DNA of 64,000 nucleotides from Thermanaerosceptrum fracticalcis. GTDB lineage: Bacteria; Bacillota; Peptococcia; DRI-13. Shown one piece after another: positions 34,096 through 49,168 of this stretch. The notes beneath the pieces are model-generated. The model did not search any database. It was not told the origin of the DNA and worked only from the letters and a program-made list of their open reading frames with translations. The translations under genes were made by a program, and so were the position numbers. Location of the stretch: assembly GCF_000746025.2 (NCBI RefSeq), contig NZ_CP045798.1, forward strand, positions 372,001 to 436,000, written 5' to 3'. Numbering within the stretch: position 1 is the first letter of the stretch; every line of letters begins with the position of its first letter.

Positions 34096-34575
34096 TTCGT
34101 CCGGCATGTTTACTGACCGATGGGTTGAAAGAAACCCTGTCACCTAAGCAGCGGGAAGACAACCCGTAAGCAAGAGCGTCACTGCAGTTACTCGGCAACG
34201 GTGTTGGAAATACGATTGGGTGCTGGAATTCGACATCAAGGGGTTGTTTGACAATATTGGCCACGAATTGCTAATGAAGGCAGTCCGCAGGCACACCGAC
34301 AATCCATGGGTTATCCAGATGGTGTAGCGCACTGCTATAGCAAAGACCCTTGAGGAACTATACAGGATGTTCGATCCATACTCAGGGGATGGGGCAACTA
34401 CTATGGACGCTTTTACACGTCGGAAATGTACTCAGTACTCAGGCACATGAATCGAGCGCTAGTCCGTTGGGCAAGACGCAAATACAAGAAACTTGCCAGA
34501 CATTAGCGACGGGCAAATTACTGGCTCGGCTTTACCTTACTCGATTTTTACATCAAATACCAAACTGAAATTCTT
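34096..34575 (+). pseudogene. group II intron reverse transcriptase remnant
   Basis: Pieces in several frames match a group II intron-encoded RT: VTRQRCWKYDWVLEFDIKGL with FDNIGHELLMKAVRRH (RT domains 2-3), then near the end RWARRKYKKLARH and YWLG from the maturase C-terminus. In-frame stops and a large internal deletion remove the YADD region. No intron RNA domain V could be recognised. It directly precedes the RidA/B12 gene group. Confidence 0.75.
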
Positions 34576-34595
34576 ATTAAGGCGAGGTGACAGGG

Positions 34596-35042
34596 TTGTT
34601 AATTGATCCCTATAAGGTCGGCATGTTCAAAGCCAATCCTTATGCCAAGAAGACAGAGATTAAAGGGAACCTGGTGGTAGTCCTGGAGGGCAAGCTGGAA
34701 GGAAGAAATCTGCAGTTAATCACACCTATTTCCCGGGCCCTTTTAAAGGGGGAAATTCACGAATTGATTTTGACTGACGAGGAAGGGGCCAAGCCTGGAG
34801 TTAAAGTACAGGCAATAGCTTATCTGGGCTTCTTTGAAGTAACAACTGGCGGAGTGATGGTCAGTGGTGACGAGTTGTTTTTACATAATCAACTCATTGG
34901 TACCGTTGCCGGTTTTGATGAAACCCATATGCCCAACCATCTAAATATCGTAATAAAAGTGCCGGAAAGAAAAAGCGGTGTGGAGTTAGGCGCGGAGCTG
35001 GGTATGGAATTAATTTGCCGGCAGAAGAATAATCAGGGATAA
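34596..35042 (+). CDS. uncharacterised protein, 148 aa (possibly DUF6917)
   Basis: A beta-rich 148-aa protein without membrane segments. It has LLIDPYKVGMF at the start, EGKLEGRNLQLITPIS and a gently acidic C-terminus. I do not recognise it with confidence; DUF6917 is a guess. GCGAGGTGA precedes; TTG 34596 is better spaced than GTG 34587. It is the first gene of the RidA-PLP-FAD-B12 group and may belong to it, though 160 bases of repeat sequence separate it from ridA. Confidence 0.6.
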   Translation: MLIDPYKVGMFKANPYAKKTEIKGNLVVVLEGKLEGRNLQLITPISRALLKGEIHELILTDEEGAKPGVKVQAIAYLGFFEVTTGGVMVSGDELFLHNQLIGTVAGFDETHMPNHLNIVIKVPERKSGVELGAELGMELICRQKNNQG

Positions 35043-35080
35043 GCAAGGAAAACTATCTTTAGCTAGCAGTTCACAGCAGT

Positions 35081-35180
35081 TAAGTTACTAGTTATTAGTT
35101 CCTAGTTACTAGTGGTTTTCCAGTCGGACTTCAGAAGTACAGGTAGCTAGTGCAGCTAACAACTGCCAACTATCAACTAC
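35081..35180. repeat. degenerate CAACTA/TAGTTA-type intergenic repeat
   Basis: Short imperfect units of the TTACTAGTTATTAGTT and GCCAACTATCAACTAC kind fill the gap in front of ridA. Related units recur at 38.5, 43.2, 52.9, 58.6 and 61.7-61.9 kb. Confidence 0.6.
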
Positions 35181-35202
35181 TTTATTAAAGGGGGATTGAT
35201 TC

Positions 35203-35661
35203 ATGTCGTATGAAGCTAAGTTAAAGGAGTTAGGGCTAGAAATGCCCGAAGCGCCTAAACCGGTTGCTGCATATGTCCCGGCTGTAAAGATTGATAAATA
35301 CGTGTACACTTCCGGGCAAATACCTTTTGTCAATGGAGAATTGAAATACAAAGGGAAAGTAGGTGGTGGTGTTAGCGAAGCAGATGCTTATGAGGCAGCT
35401 AAAGTCTGTGCCCTTAACTGTTTAAGTGTCATCAAGGCTCAGATTGGTTCTTTGGATAATATCGAACGTGTGGTGAAAATTGTAGGGTTTGTCAACAGTG
35501 CATCCGGGTTTAATATGCAGCCTAAGGTAGTCAACGGTGCCTCAGAGCTTATCGGCCAAATCTTTGGTGATGCCGGGCAGCATGCCAGGTCAGCCGTAGG
35601 TGTCAATGAACTGCCCCTGGATGCAACCGTCGAAGTGGAAATGATTGTTAAGGTGAAATAA
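35203..35661 (+). CDS. RidA family enamine/imine deaminase
   Basis: A 152-aa RidA/YjgF protein. HARSAVGVNELPLDATVEVE contains the conserved Arg that binds the substrate carboxylate and the Glu of the active site. RidA proteins hydrolyse reactive enamines/imines released by PLP enzymes. Directly downstream, 15 nt away, comes a PLP enzyme, so this protein probably clears its intermediate. AAGGGGG precedes the ATG. Confidence 0.88.
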   Translation: MSYEAKLKELGLEMPEAPKPVAAYVPAVKIDKYVYTSGQIPFVNGELKYKGKVGGGVSEADAYEAAKVCALNCLSVIKAQIGSLDNIERVVKIVGFVNSASGFNMQPKVVNGASELIGQIFGDAGQHARSAVGVNELPLDATVEVEMIVKVK

Positions 35662-35676
35662 AAGGAGGTCTTTGAA

Positions 35677-37140
35677 ATGGCAAAATTCAAGTATAAATTT
35701 CAAATGTATAAACACCTGCAGGCCAATATCCCCAATATCTATGCTGAAGCGAAAAAAATCCCTGATGAAATAGGGATTCCTGCAGAGATCAGAGGAAAAT
35801 TTGGTCTAACGGGTGCTATCTCCGGGTGTCCTGCACCCCTGAGAGATGACATCATGGAGGCTGGCGAACGTGGCAGTAAAGAGGTTATTCCTCTGGCCAA
35901 ACTGGTCGATGAAATCCGGGAAATTGTCAAAGATGTCTATGGCGATGAGTGGGATGTGGCACCCACCAGTACATGTGAAGCTGCTCTCTGGGTTACTTTT
36001 GACTCTCTCTTTACTCCTCCCATGCTGGGAAGAGGCGACAACTACCGGGCACGGTATATTGCTCCTTATGAGAAACACCTCCATCATCAGGGTGCCTACG
36101 GCAGACCTTTTCCGGGACGGTTTAAAGATATTTTCGCCGACCGCGGCTCTACAGCCGGTGAACTGGGCTTCTATGGTAAGCGCCAGAATAACCTTGACAC
36201 AGTAATCGTACCTCTGGCCGGAGCAAAATACGAATGTCATGGTATTAAATATCACCCTGTTCCCCTTTTAACAGGTGTGGACCCTGATGAATCTATCGAA
36301 ATTTTGGCCCAGTATGCGGAAATCCACGCGCCTTACTTAACCGGTTTTACTTCCTTAGGTTATACAACCCCAGGTTACGGTTATGGTGTCAAAGATGAAA
36401 GCGGCGAGCCTTTGTTAAGCAGATATATTGCCGAATTAGCTCATTCCTATGACCTGCCTTACGTGGTAGACAATGCCTGGGGATTGCCCTTTGTGGGTTA
36501 TAATCCTACCAAGACTGGTGCCGATATTGTTGTCTATGCTATGGATAAAGCCACAGGCTCTCCGACCAGCGGTTTAATCATTGGTAAAGAAGAATATATG
36601 GTACCTATCCGCAGGGCTATGGGTATGCATGGGGACCGTTACGGTACTACTGCTTCCTATGGTAAAGCTGCTTATGTAACCTTTGACCCTGGTAAAGAAG
36701 CTCTTCTCGGCCAGATCCAGGCCTTGAAGGTATTACGTGACAGACCGGAAGTATTGACCAAACCCACTGATGACTTGTATCGCGTGGTTAAGGAAGAGTT
36801 TGACAAGATTGATCCCAAACTCCGCGACGGCATCATCATTACCAAGGCGTATAACGGTACTGCCGTAGAAGTCAACTATGAAGGAACCTGGAAAGACGGT
36901 GAAATGGGTATTCCTATCTTCTCCATTGAAGATATGTATGCCGGAACCAATATCTTCCAGACAGGAATGGGTGCCATGGGTGTTATTCCTACTGTGGCCT
37001 ATGACGGCAACATCTATCTTTCTACCGGCTTAGGTACTACTGACAACAAAGGTAATCTCATTGAAGAAGTAGCCCGCTACGGTGTGCAGGCCCTGGTAAG
37101 ACTCATTGAAATCACCTGCAAGTATGCGGGCGTGCTTTAA
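35677..37140 (+). CDS. PLP-dependent enzyme, fold type I (aminotransferase V/SelA-like)
   Basis: A 487-aa fold-type I PLP enzyme. Asp265 in YVVDNAWGLPF would hold the pyridine nitrogen and Lys291 in VYAMDKATGSPTSG would form the Schiff base; the GSPTSGLIIGKEE loop recalls SelA/SepSecS-like enzymes. The N-terminal 90 residues have no match I know. The substrate is unknown. AGGAGG sits ahead of ATG 35677. It lies between a RidA protein and an FAD oxidoreductase, consistent with amino-acid or amine breakdown. It could be a lyase, mutase partner or aminotransferase. Confidence 0.75.
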   Translation: MAKFKYKFQMYKHLQANIPNIYAEAKKIPDEIGIPAEIRGKFGLTGAISGCPAPLRDDIMEAGERGSKEVIPLAKLVDEIREIVKDVYGDEWDVAPTSTCEAALWVTFDSLFTPPMLGRGDNYRARYIAPYEKHLHHQGAYGRPFPGRFKDIFADRGSTAGELGFYGKRQNNLDTVIVPLAGAKYECHGIKYHPVPLLTGVDPDESIEILAQYAEIHAPYLTGFTSLGYTTPGYGYGVKDESGEPLLSRYIAELAHSYDLPYVVDNAWGLPFVGYNPTKTGADIVVYAMDKATGSPTSGLIIGKEEYMVPIRRAMGMHGDRYGTTASYGKAAYVTFDPGKEALLGQIQALKVLRDRPEVLTKPTDDLYRVVKEEFDKIDPKLRDGIIITKAYNGTAVEVNYEGTWKDGEMGIPIFSIEDMYAGTNIFQTGMGAMGVIPTVAYDGNIYLSTGLGTTDNKGNLIEEVARYGVQALVRLIEITCKYAGVL

Positions 37141-37171
37141 CCAACAACTAACAGCAATGAGGGGGATATAT

Positions 37172-38452
37172 ATGGTTAAAGTTGTGGTGGTGGGCGGTGG
37201 CTGGGCCGGGACGGCAGCAGCTATCACCGCTCGTAAGGCAGGGGCCGATGTATTAGTCCTGGAACGTACGGATATGTTCCTTGGTACTGGACTGGTTGGC
37301 GGCATTATGCGCAACAATGGCCGTTTTGTCGCCACGGAGGAATCCAGGGCCATGGGAGCAAACGAGTTATTTGACGCGGTTGACGAAACGGCAAGACATA
37401 AGAACATTGAATTTCCCGGACACAAGCATGCCACCCTTTATGATGTGGCTAAGATTGAGCCTGCTGTAAGACGCAAACTGGATCAGGCGGGGGTCAAATA
37501 TAAACTCCAGTGCCGCGTTGCCGATGTAAAAATGGACGGAAAGAAAATTGTGGCCGTTATCGACCAGGATAAAAACGAATACAGCGCAGATGTCTTTATT
37601 GAGACTACAGGTACGGCCGGGCCCCAGGGGAACTGTTTAAAGTATGGTAACGGCTGTGCCATGTGTATTTACCGCTGTCCCACCTTTGGTCCCCGTATTG
37701 CCCTGGCCACCAAATGTGGCGTTGAGGAGTTTGTCGGTAAAAAAGCTGACGGCTCCGTAGGGGCCATGAGCGGTTCCTGTAAACTTCACAAGGATTCTTT
37801 ATCGGAAGAAATTCAAAAGGAATTAAACACCAAAGGCGTGGCTGTAATCCCCATTCCTGCAGAACTGCAGAAAAAAGGCGCTTTGGAAACGAAGGCCTGC
37901 CAGCAGTATGCTTTAAAGGAATTTGCGGAAAATATTATTCTCCTGGATACGGGCCATGCCAAGTTAATGACACCTTTCTATCCCCTGGAAACATTACGGC
38001 AGATTCCCGGTTTTGAGAATGCCAGGTATGAAGACCCCTATGCCGGCGGTATTGGTAACTCCATACGGTATCTCGCCCTTTCACCCCGGGACAATACCCT
38101 GAAAACTCAAGGGTTAGATAATCTTTTCTGCGGGGGTGAAAAGGCCGGTCTCTTAGTAGGACATACAGAAGCCATTGTTACCGGCAGCCTGGCAGGTCAT
38201 AACGCTGTCCGTTATGCCGCCGGCAAAGACCTGGTGGAAATACCAATTGCTCTTACCATTGGCGATGCCATTGCCCATGTGAATGAGCAGATGAAAACGG
38301 AAACAGGTATCACCAAGAAATATACCTTCTCCGGTTCTGTTTATTTCGAAAGAATGAAAGAACTGGGGCTTTATACGACGGATGTTCAGAAAATCAAAAA
38401 CCGGGTAGAAAAAGCGGGAATGACAGGTATCTACAATCAAAAGGTGGTTTAA
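37172..38452 (+). CDS. FAD-dependent oxidoreductase with Cys cluster
   Basis: A 426-aa flavoprotein of the GidA/glucose-inhibited-division-like FAD fold. VVVVGGGWAGTAAA (residues 4-17) is the dinucleotide-binding motif with the Glu at the end of beta-2 (LVLERTD). GNGCAMCIYRCPTFG has Cys162, Cys165 and Cys169 in a CxxCxxxC pattern near the flavin domain, suggesting a redox disulfide or Fe-S site. FCGGEKAGLLVGHTEAI is the C-terminal FAD-contact block. ATG 37172 follows GAGGGGG, 31 nt after the PLP gene. Likely an amino-acid or imine oxidoreductase, by context only. Confidence 0.78.
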   Translation: MVKVVVVGGGWAGTAAAITARKAGADVLVLERTDMFLGTGLVGGIMRNNGRFVATEESRAMGANELFDAVDETARHKNIEFPGHKHATLYDVAKIEPAVRRKLDQAGVKYKLQCRVADVKMDGKKIVAVIDQDKNEYSADVFIETTGTAGPQGNCLKYGNGCAMCIYRCPTFGPRIALATKCGVEEFVGKKADGSVGAMSGSCKLHKDSLSEEIQKELNTKGVAVIPIPAELQKKGALETKACQQYALKEFAENIILLDTGHAKLMTPFYPLETLRQIPGFENARYEDPYAGGIGNSIRYLALSPRDNTLKTQGLDNLFCGGEKAGLLVGHTEAIVTGSLAGHNAVRYAAGKDLVEIPIALTIGDAIAHVNEQMKTETGITKKYTFSGSVYFERMKELGLYTTDVQKIKNRVEKAGMTGIYNQKVV

Positions 38453-38478
38453 AGGTCACTCTTTTCGTAAAGAGGCCG

Positions 38479-38507
38479 AAAAAGGGCAGCTTCGGCTGCC
38501 CTTTTTC
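38479..38507 (+). terminator. terminator splitting the RidA-PLP-FAD genes from the B12 genes
   Basis: GGGCAGC-TTCG-GCTGCCC with A- and T-rich flanks: an extra-stable tetraloop hairpin and a T-run. Confidence 0.85.
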
Positions 38508-38752
38508 AGTTGGTAGTTGATAGTTGTTAGTTGTTAGTTGGTAGTGATCTTTAACGTGAACCGTTAACAGTTAACCGTGAACCGAATTCCGACTGCCGAC
38601 CTCCGACTGGCGAATTCCGACAATGCTGTATTAGAACATGGACTAGGAAGCAATTAAACTCGGAAATCGGAAATCGGATATCGGGAGGCGAAGCCGTATT
38701 CGCCAAAAAAGACGTCGGATATCGGAAATCAGAAGTCGAAAATCGCCATGAG
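38508..38752. repeat. composite degenerate intergenic repeat
   Basis: TAGTTGTTAGTTGTTAGTTGG units, then TTAACGTGAACCGTTAACAG units, then CGGAAATCGGAAATCGGATATC units with an embedded GGGAGGCGAAGCCG. No coding sense was seen. The last unit type and the GAGGCxAAGCCG core return near 58560. Confidence 0.65.
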
Positions 38753-38767
38753 AAAGGACGTGAAGCG

Positions 38768-39025
38768 ATGCCTGCCGTTTTACAACAGGTTATGGATGCT
38801 CTCGATGTAGAAACCTTTTTGGTTTGCAGCTGTGAAGACGAGGGCAGGAAGCTCATCATGGAATTAATGAAAGACATAGGCTTTAAAGATATTGATGTGG
38901 TTTTTATTGAATTCATGGGGCCTGGCGTGCGGGTAAGGGCCAGGGCTTATTTACACCGGGCTGGTGACCGTTACGGTTGGCTCTTAGGCGAGGGAGGGGA
39001 AACAGAACATGAATTCAGCAAATAA
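38768..39025 (+). CDS. small protein overlapping the B12 enzyme gene, 85 aa
   Basis: An acidic 85-aa alpha/beta protein with a Cys-x-Cys in LVCSCEDEG. Its last codons overlap the start of the B12-binding protein gene by 17 bases, so translation is coupled and a subunit or partner role is likely. It is smaller than the S subunits of known B12 mutases and has no B12 motif of its own. No family recognised. Confidence 0.7.
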   Translation: MPAVLQQVMDALDVETFLVCSCEDEGRKLIMELMKDIGFKDIDVVFIEFMGPGVRVRARAYLHRAGDRYGWLLGEGGETEHEFSK

Positions 39026-40838
39026 GAAGAAGGTTCTTTTAGCACCTTTGGACCCCGTCCATGATATCGGCCTGAAGATGATCCACCGGGCCATCCGGGA
39101 AGCCGGGCATACAGCAGTGCTCTTGTCGCCGGATTTGCCGGTAGAAGAAGTTATCCGGGCCATCATGGAAGAAAAGGCTGACACAGTTCTCTTAAGCCGG
39201 ACCCTGGGCTACGGTGTGGCCGAATTACTGGCTAAATTCGTAGACTTACTGGACGCCGCCGGACTAAGGGAAAAAGTCAAAGTGGGGATAGGCGGTATGG
39301 CCATTCGTTCTGAATTGGCTGCAGAGTTAGGCTTTGATGCGGGTTTCGGCCCTGGAACGACTATTGAAGAAGCCCTGGCTTTCGTAGAGGGACGGGAGTA
39401 TAATCCCGAGGCCAATAAGGTGAGAAAAGAAAAAGTAGATCTTACGGCAGGGTATTCCTATAAATTTAAACATGCCGGTATAGCCGTGCTCTTGGATAAA
39501 ATTACTTCTCAGATTATGACCTGGTGTGAGGATAAGAGTTCGCCGGGTGTTATCAGGGCCCAGCTGCGTGATGAGTACTGGGACAAAGAGGAGTGGTTAA
39601 AAGGGACCGGCAATAAAGGATTTTATGATAAATATCCCGAGTACTGCGGTGATGTGGCCAAAGCTTATTACCTAGAGGGAAAAATCCATCCTAAAACGAG
39701 ACTGTTGACTCCCGAGGAAAGTGAAGCTTACAACAGGTATGTACAAAGGACGAAAAAACGGATGGTACTAAACAAGATCCAACATACCCGGAAACTGCCC
39801 ATTGTCTTTAACCAGTATGGTACAGGCTGTCCTATCCTGGACACGGGCCATATTAAAGTGAGTGAGGCATGGGGAGCTGACGGGGTGGTTCACTTTGACC
39901 CCTCATGGGGAGCCAGGACCGAGGGCTTTCTAGAGGGGTTTGTTGCCCATGCTGAAGACGGTACCGTCATTACACCGGAAAACATGTATCGTTTGAGCCA
40001 GGCCCGGGAAAGGTCTACCTTGTGGCAGGTTCGGGCCCACCGGGGGCTAAATACACCTGAGACCGTAGTTTTAGCGGCCAAACTGGGGGCAGATTTGACC
40101 AAGATAAACATCGCCTACGGCAGCCTGGGCGCGGGGACCGACCCGGCCAGGATGACCATCGATGGTTTCCATGCCATTAAATATGCTGCCAAGTACAAGC
40201 TTCCTTTTGATATCGTCACCAATGAAGAGCTCACAGGAGTCCCCGCCTATAAAGCTTTCAGCGGTATGCTCATTGTGGCCGCTCTGGCTTTGAAATTGGG
40301 GGCACGCCCCATTCTCCAGCCCCTTTTCTGCTACTGCCCCGAATGTATGATTAGCGGTTCCATGGAAGATAACTATATCGATTTTAATTCCACCAAAGTC
40401 TTCGCCCTTCGTCAAATTCTGGATGCACCTATTTGGCCCGGCGCTCCTATTGGCTTCCTGACCCAGACAGAAGACCGGGTCCAGTCTTCTGTAAGCACCT
40501 CTCTTCATGCCATGCTGGCCTGCTCCCTCCAGGTTGAAGCAATTTCCATTGCCTCGGCCGATGAGGCCTATGCAGGCGGACCTATCAGCGTACCGGCTAA
40601 AATCGATACTTTACGGGGTGTGGAAGAAGCCTTCCGCTTCCTGGGACAGGACGACATCAGGCCTTCCGAACGGGCTAACCAGTGGGCCCAGGAGATGGTG
40701 GAAGGTATTAAAAGGGTTTTGACTAAAGTAGCTGAACGGGATGATTTTGTTCAAACTCTCTATGAAGGCCTCCTGGGCAGTAAAGAAGAAGGTGCCTATC
40801 CGGGCCGCGCAGGAAAAGGGACGGTCATTATAAAGTAA
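39009..40838 (+). CDS. B12-binding mutase-like protein, 609 aa
   Basis: Residues 7-135 form a Rossmann B12-binding domain: KVLLAPLDPVHDIGLKMI carries the lower-ligand His18 and Gly21 of the H-x-x-G core, with Asp15 one place off the usual DxHxxG, then VGIGGMAIRSELAAELG and the GFGPGT block. Residues 150-600 look like a TIM-barrel catalytic part of the glutamate-mutase E type (KINIAYGSLGAGTDPARM, EELTGVPAYKAFSGM, a Cys-rich FCYCPECMISGS). Substrate unknown. This would be a B12-dependent carbon-skeleton mutase or aminomutase with both domains fused. Starts at ATG 39009 behind GAGGGG. Confidence 0.72.
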   Translation: MNSANKKKVLLAPLDPVHDIGLKMIHRAIREAGHTAVLLSPDLPVEEVIRAIMEEKADTVLLSRTLGYGVAELLAKFVDLLDAAGLREKVKVGIGGMAIRSELAAELGFDAGFGPGTTIEEALAFVEGREYNPEANKVRKEKVDLTAGYSYKFKHAGIAVLLDKITSQIMTWCEDKSSPGVIRAQLRDEYWDKEEWLKGTGNKGFYDKYPEYCGDVAKAYYLEGKIHPKTRLLTPEESEAYNRYVQRTKKRMVLNKIQHTRKLPIVFNQYGTGCPILDTGHIKVSEAWGADGVVHFDPSWGARTEGFLEGFVAHAEDGTVITPENMYRLSQARERSTLWQVRAHRGLNTPETVVLAAKLGADLTKINIAYGSLGAGTDPARMTIDGFHAIKYAAKYKLPFDIVTNEELTGVPAYKAFSGMLIVAALALKLGARPILQPLFCYCPECMISGSMEDNYIDFNSTKVFALRQILDAPIWPGAPIGFLTQTEDRVQSSVSTSLHAMLACSLQVEAISIASADEAYAGGPISVPAKIDTLRGVEEAFRFLGQDDIRPSERANQWAQEMVEGIKRVLTKVAERDDFVQTLYEGLLGSKEEGAYPGRAGKGTVIIK

Positions 40839-40856
40839 GCATTGCTTTGGGTTATG

Positions 40857-40893
40857 TATCCCGTTACCCGTCACCCGCCACCCGCTTCCCGAA
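40857..40893. repeat. short CCCGTxAC-type repeat
   Basis: Four imperfect units (CCCGTTA, CCCGTCA, CCCGCCA, CCCGCTT) follow the B12 gene. The rest of the 40839-41020 gap shows nothing I can name; no cobalamin riboswitch was seen. Confidence 0.45.
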
Positions 40894-41020
40894 AATTACG
40901 GGAATATGAAAGATGACATGATAAAAGTTTAACGGGACAAGCAGGAATACGCTTTCTTTTTGCATAATTAATACAGCATGCCCTTTCGGGAACAACAGAC
41001 AGAAAGAAGGCTTATGCGAA

Positions 41021-42037
41021 ATGTCGAAAATTATTGGGATTGCCGGTACAGCTAAAAACACAGGTAAAACGACGACGACTACGGCCATTATGGAGAAGGT
41101 CTACAGCCATAAACTAAAGCTGGGCCTGACCAGTATCGGCTATGACGGTGAGGTCATGGATAATGTCACGGGTTTACCCAAACCCAGGATCCGGGCGGAA
41201 AAAGGTACCGTTGTGGCTATTGCCCAGTCTTGTCTCGCCGCGGGTTCGGCGGATATTGAGGTTCTGGCAACCACTGATATCCGGACGCCTTTGGGCAAAA
41301 TTGTTATCGGTGAGGTTAAGGAGCCAGGTCTCGTGGTCATTGCCGGGGCCAACAAGAGCTCGGAAGTCAGGATCGTCAATAAGCTCCTAAAAGAACAGGG
41401 TTGTGACCTGGTCCTGGTGGACGGTGCATTAAACCGCATCGCCCCTATGGTAGAAACCCAGGGATTGATTGTGGCCACAGGTGCAGCCAGAACCACTAAT
41501 CTTCCGAAATTAGCCGAGGAGACCTCTTGTATGTCGGCTATATTGAATTTACCTCCTTGGCCGGAAAAGGAAAAAGCGACGCTGGTATCTACCTCCCTTC
41601 TTAATGAAGCCATGGTGAAAGAACTTTTACAGCGCGTAACCTCCGAAACCAGGGAAATTGTAGTGACGGGTATTATTGGGGAAAAGAGCTTCCAGGCTTT
41701 GTTAGACCTGGGGAAAGATATTTTACCGGGGAAGGCTCTGGTTCTCCCGGATCCTATCAAGGTCCTGGTGGCCGGTGCTCCGGACCTGATGTTCGAAGTA
41801 ATAGCGAGACTGGCCGACAGCGGTACACCTGTTTATGTGCAAAAGCCGGTGAAATTACTGGCTATCACCGTAAACCCTTTCTATCCCCGTTATCGTTATA
41901 CCTCCCATGATTACGAACCGGCCTATGTAGAAAAGGAAGAGTTAAAACAAAGCATCCAGCAAAAATGTAAGGTGCCTGTGGTTGATGTGGTGGAAGAAGG
42001 TATAGACCGCTTATGGGCGACTTTAGGCCTCGAATAA
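41021..42037 (+). CDS. P-loop NTPase associated with the B12 enzyme
   Basis: A 338-aa protein with Walker A GTAKNTGKT at residues 9-17 and a long, otherwise unfamiliar body (VLVDGALNRIAPMVETQG is probably the Walker B region). B12 mutases often need a nucleotide-driven chaperone that exchanges damaged cofactor, and the position next to the B12 gene suggests that role here, but the sequence is not clearly MeaB/ArgK. No signal peptide or membrane span. Confidence 0.65.
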   Translation: MSKIIGIAGTAKNTGKTTTTTAIMEKVYSHKLKLGLTSIGYDGEVMDNVTGLPKPRIRAEKGTVVAIAQSCLAAGSADIEVLATTDIRTPLGKIVIGEVKEPGLVVIAGANKSSEVRIVNKLLKEQGCDLVLVDGALNRIAPMVETQGLIVATGAARTTNLPKLAEETSCMSAILNLPPWPEKEKATLVSTSLLNEAMVKELLQRVTSETREIVVTGIIGEKSFQALLDLGKDILPGKALVLPDPIKVLVAGAPDLMFEVIARLADSGTPVYVQKPVKLLAITVNPFYPRYRYTSHDYEPAYVEKEELKQSIQQKCKVPVVDVVEEGIDRLWATLGLE

Positions 42038-42048
42038 GTACAAAGAAA

Positions 42049-42079
42049 CAAAAACGCAGCTTCAGGGCTGCGTTTTTGT
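42049..42079. terminator. bidirectional terminator
   Basis: AAAACGCAGC/GCTGCGTTTT stem (42051-42060 with 42067-42076), flanked by A- and T-runs; serves the NTPase gene (+) and the small acidic gene (-). Confidence 0.85.
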
Positions 42080-42080
42080 T

Positions 42081-42212
42081 TTAGAGGATGGGTATATCAT
42101 CTAAGTCCTCATCTGCTTTAGGTTCGTTATCAGTTTCCTCTGTGGACGGTGATTCATCCTCCAGGTAGAGAGGAAACTGGGGATCTTTCCAGTAGGGAAT
42201 AGGTTTCTGCAC
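42081..42212 (-). CDS. small acidic protein, 43 aa
   Basis: GTG 42212 stands behind a strong GGGAGGTG and opens a 43-codon frame with a Pro/Trp-containing head (MQKPIPYWKDPQFPLYLEDE) and a very acidic tail. The frame is open further upstream, but without a site. It abuts a terminator. No known family; possibly a regulatory or cofactor-handling miniprotein. Confidence 0.5.
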   Translation of the reverse strand: MQKPIPYWKDPQFPLYLEDESPSTEETDNEPKADEDLDDIPIL

Positions 42213-42380
42213 CGTTTTCACCTCCCGTTTTATTTTTATCATTCCCGGGTGGTGATGAAATAAATGAAGTTTTTTCACTATGTAAGTGATGTAAAATGAA
42301 ATAATTAAGAATAAGTATAATGAAAATGGGCAAACGATTTGCTAAAATATTTATCAATATCAACTGAAAAAAGGAAGTGG

Positions 42381-43031
42381 ATGCAATTGTCCCTCGTCAC
42401 CTTATTTATTACCGCTTTTATTATGGGTTTTTCAGGTGCCATGATGCCGGGGCCCCTCTTAACAGTCAATATCAATGAATCCTACCGGCGAGGGATCAGT
42501 GCGGGACCTCTACTGATCATGGGGCATGGGTTCTTGGAACTGCTGCTGGTTATTGGCTTGACCCTTGGTTTGGGGGCAGTCTTGGTTCTCCCTCTCGTGA
42601 AGGGTGTCATTGCCCTTGTGGGTGGGCTTGTTCTCTTATGGATGGGCTGGGATATGGTGAAGGAAGCCTGGCAGGGTGCCGTGTCCCTGGAGTTAGCGGC
42701 AGGTGGCGAGGTGAAAGGGATGCAGCCCGTGCTGGCCGGGGCGGTCGTTAGTTTGTCCAACCCCTACTGGGTTTTATGGTGGGCCACCATTGGGGTGACT
42801 TATGTAACCCTGGCCTTGCAAAAAGGTATTCTCGGTCTTGCTGTTTTTCTCACAGGTCATGTGCTTTCCGATTTTGTCTGGTATACTGCCGTCTCCCTGG
42901 CCGTTGTCAGCGGCAGAAAATTATTGAGCGACAAAGTATACCGGGGCATTTTGATCACCTGCGGCCTTTTCTTACTCTATCTGGCCATTTATTTCATCTG
43001 GTCAGGCAAGAACTTTCTGCTAGGTACTTAA
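42381..43031 (+). CDS. LysE/RhtB family transporter
   Basis: A 216-aa membrane protein with about six hydrophobic segments. FIMGFSGAMMPGPLLTVNINES near the N-terminus is the LysE/RhtB signature (PGP plus the following polar residues), and SLSNPYWVLWWATIGV is the second conserved block. These proteins export amino acids. It lies behind the B12/NTPase genes and could export a product or toxic excess of that pathway. ATG 42381 follows GGAAGTGG. Confidence 0.85.
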   Translation: MQLSLVTLFITAFIMGFSGAMMPGPLLTVNINESYRRGISAGPLLIMGHGFLELLLVIGLTLGLGAVLVLPLVKGVIALVGGLVLLWMGWDMVKEAWQGAVSLELAAGGEVKGMQPVLAGAVVSLSNPYWVLWWATIGVTYVTLALQKGILGLAVFLTGHVLSDFVWYTAVSLAVVSGRKLLSDKVYRGILITCGLFLLYLAIYFIWSGKNFLLGT

Positions 43032-43230
43032 GATACGACTTTCCGACATCCGATTTCAGTTACCTGAGATTCAGTGACCGGAGTTCGGCACCTGTGTAAG
43101 TGACCAGAGTCCAGTGTCCAGTATCCGGTATATTAAACTGGTTACTGGTCACAGGTCACCGGTCACTAAACTAAAAAGTAACTGCGAACTTTTACACTAC
43201 CAACTACCAACTATCAACTAACAACTAATT
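43032..43230. repeat. composite degenerate intergenic repeat
   Basis: CCGACATCCGATTTC-type, then GTGACCAGAGTCCAGTGTCC-type, then CACTACCAACTACCAACTAT-type units in series, filling the gap before ylbF. Confidence 0.65.
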
Positions 43231-43249
43231 CAAAAAAGGAGGTAAAACA

Positions 43250-43591
43250 ATGGTCTACGACAAAGCCCATGAGCTGGCGAAAGCCCTGAGGTTTAGTCCT
43301 GAATACAGGCAGTTTAAGGAAGCCAAAGAAAAAATTAGCCGCAATCCGGAAAGCCAAAAAATATTAGAGGATTTCCACAAAAAGCAGTTGGAAATCCAGA
43401 CCATGCAGATGCTAGGTAAGGAAATACCACCGGAGAAAATGCGTGAATATGAAAAGATGTCGGAGATCTTAAATTATCACCCCAGTGTCCGGGAATTTCT
43501 CCAGGCTGAGTATAAAATAGCCCAGATGTTCGCCGACATCCAAAAAATACTGGCCGAGGCTCTTGACCTGGAATTGCCGAAAAATGAATGA
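43250..43591 (+). CDS. YlbF/YmcA family protein
   Basis: A 113-aa helical protein of the YlbF/YmcA (Com_YlbF) family: KAHELAKALRFSPEYRQFKEA at the start and YHPSVREFLQAEYKIAQMF near the end. In Bacillus these proteins form a complex that directs RNase Y and affects sporulation, competence and biofilm. AAGGAGG precedes the ATG. Confidence 0.85.
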   Translation: MVYDKAHELAKALRFSPEYRQFKEAKEKISRNPESQKILEDFHKKQLEIQTMQMLGKEIPPEKMREYEKMSEILNYHPSVREFLQAEYKIAQMFADIQKILAEALDLELPKNE

Positions 43592-47705: not shown

Positions 47706-48043
47706 AAAGATAATTCATGAATAAGCTCGGAAAGGGTTATACCGTTTCCGACCGTTTTTTTGTTTACATATTTGCCACTTATATTTAAGGAGCGGCAGGG
47801 AAAATGTACAGAGCCAGGATAGGGTTGGGTGCAATGTTAAAATTCTATAGATTCTCACCTTATTTTTTGTAATGTATTATGGTTGGACGCGTGGTAAGAT
47901 ATATACGTGCATACAAAATTCCGGACGAAGGAAGACCATGATTGAATTAGTTTGATTAGACGAGGTGGTTATTTTCGAAAGGGTCGAAACTATGAGTGTT
48001 AAGTCTTTTAGAGAGGAACTTTTTATTACGGGGAGAGTATAAA
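47706..48043. other. intergenic region before the decarboxylase genes
   Basis: It contains a short inverted repeat AACGGT..ACCGTTT-type near 47735-47760 (AAAGGGTTATACCGTTTCCGAC) and otherwise only AT-rich sequence. I see no clear promoter or riboswitch. Confidence 0.4.
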
Positions 48044-49168
48044 GTGTTACAAGAGTTATGGATCGGAATTTTTGGCCTTACCTGGAAACATCTTGTTATG
48101 TATTTAGTAGGCTTTGGGTTAATCTACCTGGCTATCAAAAAGGATTATGAACCACTATTACTTATGCCCATTGGCTTTGGCGCAATTTTATCCAATATTC
48201 CTTTTTCCTCAGCAGTGGGTGAACATGGTCCCCTTACCACTTTACTTAAGGCCGGTATTTTAAATGAGTTATTTCCTGTTTTAATCTTCATTGCCATTGG
48301 GGCCATGATTGATTTTACTCCCCTTATACGCAATCCTCTGATGATGGTTTTTGGTGCCGCTGCCCAATTTGGCATCTTTGCCACTATTGTGGTCGCTGCT
48401 CTGTTGAATTTCCCTCTTAATGAAGCTGCCGCTGTAGGTATCATCGGGGCAGCAGATGGACCTACGACCATTTACGTAGCCAACAAGTTTGCCCGATCAC
48501 TGCTTGGGCCGCTATCGGTAGCAGCTTACTCTTACATGTCCCTGGTTCCTATCATTCAGCCACCTGTTATTAAAGCTTTAACGACAAAGAATGAGCGTAT
48601 GATCAGGATGCCCTATAAAGAGGGGGTCAAAGTATCTAAAACCGTAAGGATACTTTTTCCCATAGTTGTTACAATAATTGCGGGAATTATCGCTCCTATT
48701 AGTGTAGCCCTTGTCGGTTTTCTGATGTTTGGTAACCTGATCCGTGAATGTGGCGTAGTGGAACGTCTTAGTCAGGCCGCCCAAAACGAGCTGGCCAACC
48801 TGGTAACCCTGCTCCTGGGTATTACCATTGGTGGAACCATGACTGCTGAGGAATTCCTTAATTTAAAGACCATCATGGTAATGGCCATGGGTTTGGTGGC
48901 CTTCATTTTTGACACTGCGGGCGGTGTCATCGTGGCCAAGATCATGAATCTCTTCCTCAAAGAAAAAATCAATCCTATGATTGGTGCTGCCGGGATTTCA
49001 GCCTTCCCCATGGCTGGTAGAGTAGTAGCTAAAATGGCCCTCCAGGAAGACAGAAATAACTTTATTATCATGCATGCGATTGGTGCCAACGTGTCAGGAC
49101 AGATTGGTTCCATAATTGCGGGTGGCGTGGTTCTGGCTGTGGTCGGGGCTATGCTGGGCGTGAAATAA
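48044..49168 (+). CDS. Na+-pumping decarboxylase beta subunit (OadB/MmdB/GcdB family)
   Basis: A 374-aa polytopic protein of the membrane subunit that couples decarboxylation of a biotin-bound carboxyl group to Na+ export. IGAADGPTTIYVANKF carries the Asp needed for Na+/H+ transport, and MLPIGFGAILSNIP-like and GAAGISAFPMAGRVV blocks are typical. GTG 48044 follows GGGGAGAG. The catalytic alpha and biotin subunits are not in the window, so oxaloacetate, methylmalonyl-CoA or glutaconyl-CoA cannot be decided. Confidence 0.9.
   Translation: MLQELWIGIFGLTWKHLVMYLVGFGLIYLAIKKDYEPLLLMPIGFGAILSNIPFSSAVGEHGPLTTLLKAGILNELFPVLIFIAIGAMIDFTPLIRNPLMMVFGAAAQFGIFATIVVAALLNFPLNEAAAVGIIGAADGPTTIYVANKFARSLLGPLSVAAYSYMSLVPIIQPPVIKALTTKNERMIRMPYKEGVKVSKTVRILFPIVVTIIAGIIAPISVALVGFLMFGNLIRECGVVERLSQAAQNELANLVTLLLGITIGGTMTAEEFLNLKTIMVMAMGLVAFIFDTAGGVIVAKIMNLFLKEKINPMIGAAGISAFPMAGRVVAKMALQEDRNNFIIMHAIGANVSGQIGSIIAGGVVLAVVGAMLGVK

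Follow-up and report, generated by a model that had tools for sequence, protein, structure and literature searches.

Which pathway is encoded by a run of eight genes in Thermanaerosceptrum fracticalcis that places a vitamin B12-binding protein next to a pyridoxal 5'-phosphate (PLP) enzyme, and how does its central enzyme relate to the known adenosylcobalamin (AdoCbl)-dependent mutases? The genes lie in a stretch of 64,000 nucleotides (the window; bases 372001-436000 of the single-contig, 3.8 Mb genome), to whose numbering the positions below refer. An earlier note on this DNA had described them as an undescribed B12/PLP island with the logic of an aminomutase pathway, i.e., a B12 mutase, a reactivating nucleoside triphosphatase (NTPase) and PLP chemistry. 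All eight open reading frames (ORFs) are present on one strand at 34587-43031, in the order given by that note. The cassette is real and conserved and apparently undescribed, and its central enzyme, a B12 protein of 609 amino acids (aa), forms a new lineage with permuted domains within the B12 aminomutase superfamily. The view of a conserved, undescribed gene set with mutase, reactivase and PLP logic was upheld, whereas the statement that signatures of KamD and KamE are unrecognisable and the inclusion of a LysE-type exporter were not.

Kinship of the 609-aa B12 Protein

The B12 domain of the 609-aa protein (39009..40838, + strand) comprises residues ~1-130 (PF02310, E 1.7e-14) and is closest to KamE, to which it aligned in hhalign with an E-value of 4.2e-18 and 36% identity over 112 columns. 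The barrel that follows (residues ~138-609) matched the KamD profile at E 4.6e-6, with a score of 52; none of 30 shuffled profiles scored above 29, and the reversed profile reached 17. When an AlphaFold model (mean pLDDT, the predicted local distance difference test score, of 78.8; built with a 23-sequence alignment) was compared with the PDB using Foldseek, the top three matches were KamD structures (E 1e-16 to 8e-15, template modelling score ~0.6 by target), led by 8t0v_A and 1xrs_A (E ~1e-16), and IcmF and OraE came next. Moreover, the 85-aa protein encoded directly upstream (38768..39025, + strand) matched the N-terminal domain of KamE at E 1.4e-5 (hhalign score 32.6 versus at most 17.7 for 60 shuffles) and is its likely stand-alone counterpart. 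The ORFs of the 85-aa and the 609-aa protein share 17 bases, which makes the translational coupling suggested previously plausible. Taken together, the matches to KamE, KamD and the KamE N-terminal domain indicate a relative of lysine 5,6-aminomutase (KamD/KamE; PDB 1xrs, 8t0v, 9q1a) in which the domains are permuted, partly split and partly fused: as judged from profile and model comparisons, KamD and KamE are re-cut such that the N-terminal domain of KamE is a protein of its own, while the B12 domain of KamE precedes the KamD barrel on a single chain. The claim that no KamD/KamE signature is recognisable was therefore not supported, as the B12 and 85-aa proteins are related to KamE/KamD and the NTPase scores as KamB.

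The relationship is distant. The 609-aa protein reached 54.6 bits against the KamE equivalog NF052385 (cut-off 280) and 36.3 bits against the OraE equivalog NF040743 (cut-off 800), and the KamD alpha-subunit family PF09043 (Lys-AminoMut_A) had no match either in this protein or in the whole T. fracticalcis genome. D-ornithine 4,5-aminomutase (OraS/OraE; PDB 3kow-3kp1) likewise combines B12 domain and barrel on one chain and has a small subunit (fold match E 2e-10), but the B12 domain is C-terminal in OraE and N-terminal here. Profile searches in Pfam and NCBIfam placed neither the B12 protein nor the PLP enzyme of the cassette in a characterised pathway.

The B12 loop reads DPVHDIGLK ... GG; the base-off/His-on cobalamin motif D-x-(x)-H-x-x-G ... 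GG, and with it the axial histidine, is conserved in 63/63 members of the family. Since such a normal DxxHDxGxK loop is also found in glutamate mutase and methylmalonyl-CoA (coenzyme A) mutase, a carbon-skeleton mutase of the glutamate mutase type (GlmS/GlmE), converting glutamate to methylaspartate or a close analogue, has to be considered. No PLP would be expected for such an enzyme, and the invariant barrel arginines R303, R342 and R345 could bind carboxylates. This assignment is nevertheless improbable: the 609-aa protein matched no GlmE family in Pfam or NCBIfam, its PDB fold matches were led by KamD and OraE with no GlmE subunit among the 50 listed, and no methylaspartate or mesaconate genes were recognised in the cassette.

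Apparent Loss of the PLP Site

In lysine 5,6-aminomutase, the side chains contacting PLP are Lys144 of the B12 domain, which forms the imine with PLP, and Arg184, Ser189, Ser238, Tyr263, Arg268 and Asn299 (PMC3958899). In the profile alignment, only Tyr263 of these seven is retained, as Tyr370 of the 609-aa protein, whereas Arg184, Ser238 and Arg268 align with Asp297, Arg345 and Ala375, and Lys144, Ser189 and Asn299 fall in gaps. Two alignment-free checks gave the same picture: the RTxGQS phosphate loop of KamD was found in 0/63 members as compared to 11/11 KamD controls, and the NMKG lysine loop of KamE in 0/63 members as compared to 12/12 KamE controls. As a control for divergence, OraE, which is 30% identical to KamD, keeps the barrel PLP contacts in the same kind of alignment. 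Thus, on sequence grounds, the family seems not to be a lysine 5,6-aminomutase and seems to have lost the PLP site. The loss of both the PLP-lysine loop and the PLP-phosphate loop implies that the mutase probably does not use a PLP of its own to rearrange its substrate.

We favour, with moderate confidence, a previously undescribed AdoCbl-dependent mutase without PLP of its own that would be maintained by KamB; its partners would be a separate PLP enzyme, RidA and a flavoprotein, and its substrate an amino acid or carboxylate. Several points weigh against this. A lack of the known motifs is no proof that PLP is lacking, and the barrel still contains invariant lysines (K365, K415 and K463); in addition, the alignment to the KamD barrel is just 22% identical, so that individual residue pairings may be shifted by some residues. 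A few genomes (G094; L208-L210) carry the PLP gene but not the mutase, and hence the two enzymes may not act strictly in sequence. Finally, RidA is absent near about half of the B12 loci.

The main rival is a new way of binding PLP, i.e., a PLP-dependent class III aminomutase for another amino acid in which PLP is held by other residues, for example one of the three barrel lysines. The overall kinship with KamD/KamE, the retained PLP-stacking tyrosine and the KamB reactivase, common to lysine 5,6-aminomutase, are in line with this explanation. It is rather unlikely, however, given that the tyrosine alone is kept of the seven side-chain contacts, that RTxGQS and the lysine loop are missing throughout the family, and that the ornithine enzyme, although rearranged too, retains the PLP determinants.

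Conservation of the Cassette

The B12 protein was located by translated search in genomes of the same GTDB class, where it is present in 12/46, in named genomes, for example Sporomusa ovata and Paenibacillus sp. P25, and in a sample of the phylum Bacillota, where 39 of 399 genomes (~10%) carry it. Neighbourhoods were counted at 62 B12-protein loci, partners being counted if encoded on the same strand and no more than 10 kb away. The 85-aa gene was near the B12 gene in 60/62 loci and the PLP gene in 55/62, followed by the NTPase gene (48/62), an FCD-domain GntR regulator (45/62), DUF6917 and the flavin adenine dinucleotide (FAD) protein gene (42/62 each), RidA (32/62) and a transporter gene (22/62); the complete set of 85-aa, PLP, FAD and NTPase genes was found at 40/62. 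This grouping is far beyond chance, and co-occurrence in other genomes is strong. The core consists of seven genes, namely those for DUF6917, RidA, the PLP enzyme, the Cys-rich FAD flavoprotein, the 85-aa protein, the 609-aa B12 protein and the NTPase. Domain searches confirmed the gene identities named before (RidA, PLP, FAD/Cys, B12, P-loop NTPase, LysE), and the first gene, unnamed at the time, encodes a DUF6917 protein. The LysE-type exporter gene (42339..43031, + strand; PF01810, E 1.2e-32) had been counted as part of the island; outside the same genus it adjoins the cassette in 1/62 loci, and it was rejected as a member and is regarded as a neighbour. A search of an open-access library turned up no publication on either DUF6917 or a cassette of this kind, and we found no described pathway that accounts for the gene set.

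The association also holds at the level of genomes. The PLP family is present in 39/39 B12-positive genomes of the 399 sampled and in only two B12-negative ones, one of these being a 77-residue fragment at a contig end (Fisher 4e-52; the Fisher P-values given here and below assume independent genomes, an assumption that does not hold among relatives). In a second arrangement, the gene order is GntR, 85-aa, B12 and PLP beside mre-minCDE-rodA, and the NTPase gene lies elsewhere, often by YlbF. T. fracticalcis has both arrangements: an additional 85-aa/B12/PLP set lies at C1:3.09 Mb, and DUF6917, FAD and RidA genes likewise form another set at C1:1.91 Mb. The mre-min-rodA genes were rejected as partners, as they mark a conserved chromosomal position of one arrangement. 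Two genes of the named genomes read as two ORFs each, due to either a frameshift or a sequencing error: the B12 gene of S. ovata (L051:9998-11819) and the DUF6917 gene of Paenibacillus sp. P25 (L048:9300-9766).

The KamB-Type NTPase

The NTPase gene (41021..42037, + strand) encodes 338 aa with the P-loop GTAKNTGKT, and a P-loop is present in 55/55 of its homologues. The protein passes the profile of the lysine 5,6-aminomutase reactivase KamB (NF052386 reactivase_KamB, 225.9 bits, cut-off 210), and this score, taken alone, would mislead annotation toward lysine 5,6-aminomutase. A divergent form of a known lysine or ornithine fermentation pathway, to which automatic annotation would be steered in this way, is nonetheless hardly credible, and we rejected it: the genome encodes no Lys-AminoMut_A protein and hence no KamD, and the PLP determinants are lost. 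Moreover, the other cassette genes belong to neither pathway, several genomes hold a true KamD beside the 609-aa family, each mutase with a KamB of its own (such genomes usually have two KamB genes), and no dedicated KamC partner was found in the T. fracticalcis genome, which gave only MutS- and MutS2-sized matches. Compared with lysine 5,6-aminomutase, which resembles the present system in the B12 domain, the barrel fold, the first domain of KamE and the presence of KamB, the mutase is here always accompanied by a separate PLP enzyme, and its gene neighbours differ from those of the lysine pathway.

The distribution of KamB suggests that it serves a second client here. In a sample of 300 genomes, 79/79 KamB-positive genomes carry KamD or a B12 protein of the 609-aa type, and among the KamD-free genomes of that sample the sets with KamB and with the B12 protein coincide (19/19; Fisher 1.6e-28), whereas OraE-only genomes of the sample lack KamB. 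In the same GTDB class, KamB is present in 12/12 B12-positive genomes, even where the genes are far apart. We propose that KamB reactivates or reloads the cobalamin of the mutase, which would be in accordance with its family and perfect co-occurrence.

In T. fracticalcis the NTPase and LysE genes are followed by a YlbF gene (LysE-YlbF span 42339-43591). Where the B12 gene lies elsewhere, the KamB-type gene is still repeatedly located in the YlbF neighbourhood of the chromosome (L095, L096, L098, L099).

Partner Proteins and Proposed Pathway

The PLP enzyme (35677..37140, + strand; 487 aa) has a fold-type I architecture and forms a family of its own. No Pfam or NCBIfam family scored above cut-off; matches to SelA, DgaE and Cys/Met enzymes were sub-threshold, that to DgaE having an E-value of 3.6e-11. 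With a model of mean pLDDT 83.9, Foldseek returned SepCysS, Cap15 and SelA (E ~1e-13 to 1e-12) as well as aminotransferases; the SelA/SepCysS/DgaE group thus provides the best structural matches, but at just 10-16% identity in the structural alignment, and the family of the cassette enzyme is unnamed. K291 and D265 are invariant in the family, and K291 is predicted to be the Schiff-base lysine. Divergent relatives without a mutase were seen at L209:7994-10611, with RidA and DUF6917, at L210:8350-10214, with RidA, and at L204:9050-10564, while a lone relative at L208:7881-9347 adjoins genes for a PrpD-like protein, an M19 peptidase and a class V aminotransferase.

RidA proteins hydrolyse enamine and imine products of PLP enzymes. 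The RidA gene of the cassette (35203..35661, + strand; 152 aa; PF14588 YjgF_endoribonc, E 6.8e-23; PF01042 Ribonuc_L-PSP, E 1.7e-18) encodes a RidA/YjgF enamine-imine hydrolase, copies of which in other full cassettes are 66-79% identical, and loci that lack the mutase (L209, L210) likewise have RidA next to the PLP gene. The DUF6917 protein of 151 aa (34587..35042, + strand; PF21891, E 1.5e-47) starts at GTG 34587 and not at 34596, and no usable PDB relative of DUF6917 was found.

The FAD oxidoreductase (37172..38452, + strand; 426 aa; PF01134, E 3.6e-36) has an MnmG/GidA-like fold, MnmG/GidA being the best match of the PDB profile, and its start is most likely ATG 37172. Its invariant motif C155-x6-C162-x2-C165-x3-C169-P is likely a [4Fe-4S] site. 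The FAD family is present in 115/399 genomes, mostly without the B12 cassette. A second Cys-rich FAD subfamily (L203:9938-12205, L216:9585-11868) adjoins an FAD/NAD (nicotinamide adenine dinucleotide) protein resembling sulfide and dihydroorotate dehydrogenases (NF004470, E 1e-124).

The transporter genes counted above encode membrane proteins of ~460 aa with 11-12 helices (L040:7188-8591, L165:3844-5232, L165:14839-16227) and sometimes flank the cassette on both sides. They had no match above threshold in Pfam, NCBIfam or the PDB and are apparently an unclassified transporter family.

Based on these data, we propose that the core of the pathway would be an AdoCbl radical mutase sharing an ancestor with KamDE, in the barrel of which AdoCbl homolysis and radical rearrangement would take place. 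The separate PLP enzyme, acting after or before the mutase step, would eliminate or transfer the amino group, and RidA would hydrolyse the enamine or imine released. The Cys-rich flavoprotein may carry out a redox step, perhaps with the often-nearby NAD-linked partner resembling sulfide or dihydroorotate dehydrogenases. The pathway would often be under control of the FCD-domain GntR regulator and be served by the 11-12-helix transporter, and regulator and transporter together suggest an imported amino acid or carboxylate as substrate. The neighbour genes at individual loci include an acyl-CoA ligase, a type III CoA-transferase and a TRAP transporter at locus L165, a class III aminotransferase in four loci, a dihydrodipicolinate-synthase-like aldolase in two and peptide ABC transporters in two. 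These genes are too varied to settle the substrate. An AdoCbl-dependent leucine 2,3-aminomutase was reportedly described long ago without a gene; as a candidate activity it is neither supported nor excluded here.

Whether this amounts to a new class of AdoCbl mutase that arose from PLP-dependent aminomutases, with PLP shed to a dedicated second enzyme and the pathway spread through many Bacillota, is in our estimate evenly balanced. The number of known AdoCbl mutases is, to our knowledge, small, and each of them has defined a pathway. If true, the permuted family, present in about a tenth of the Bacillota genomes sampled and equipped with its own reactivase and a constant PLP partner, would add a reaction to B12 biochemistry and would reveal how radical mutases change between PLP-dependent and PLP-independent forms; it would also correct the likely mis-annotation of cassette KamB genes as evidence of lysine fermentation.

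Surroundings of the Cassette

The RNA search gave just two tRNAs, and no cobalamin riboswitch or other RNA was found upstream of the cassette. Between ytxC and the cassette (34110-34480) lies a degenerate reverse-transcriptase remnant, reading YDWVLEFDIKGLFDNIGHELLMKAVRRHTDNPW and then a stop, which resembles a group II intron in decay; a genome of the same genus (L050) instead has a Ca/Na-antiporter gene directly ahead of DUF6917. A short AT-rich intergenic repeat (ACTAGTTATTAGTTCCTAGTTACTAGT-like) is located at 35059-35138, with similar copies near 38660-38754 and 43197-43220; over 40 additional matches to it are dispersed across the genome, and related degenerate repeats occur in other intergenic gaps of the window. 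A few kb after the cassette, at 47996-49168, an ORF of 390 aa encodes a putative sodium-pumping decarboxylase beta subunit, and L045, from the same genus, shows the same gene order.

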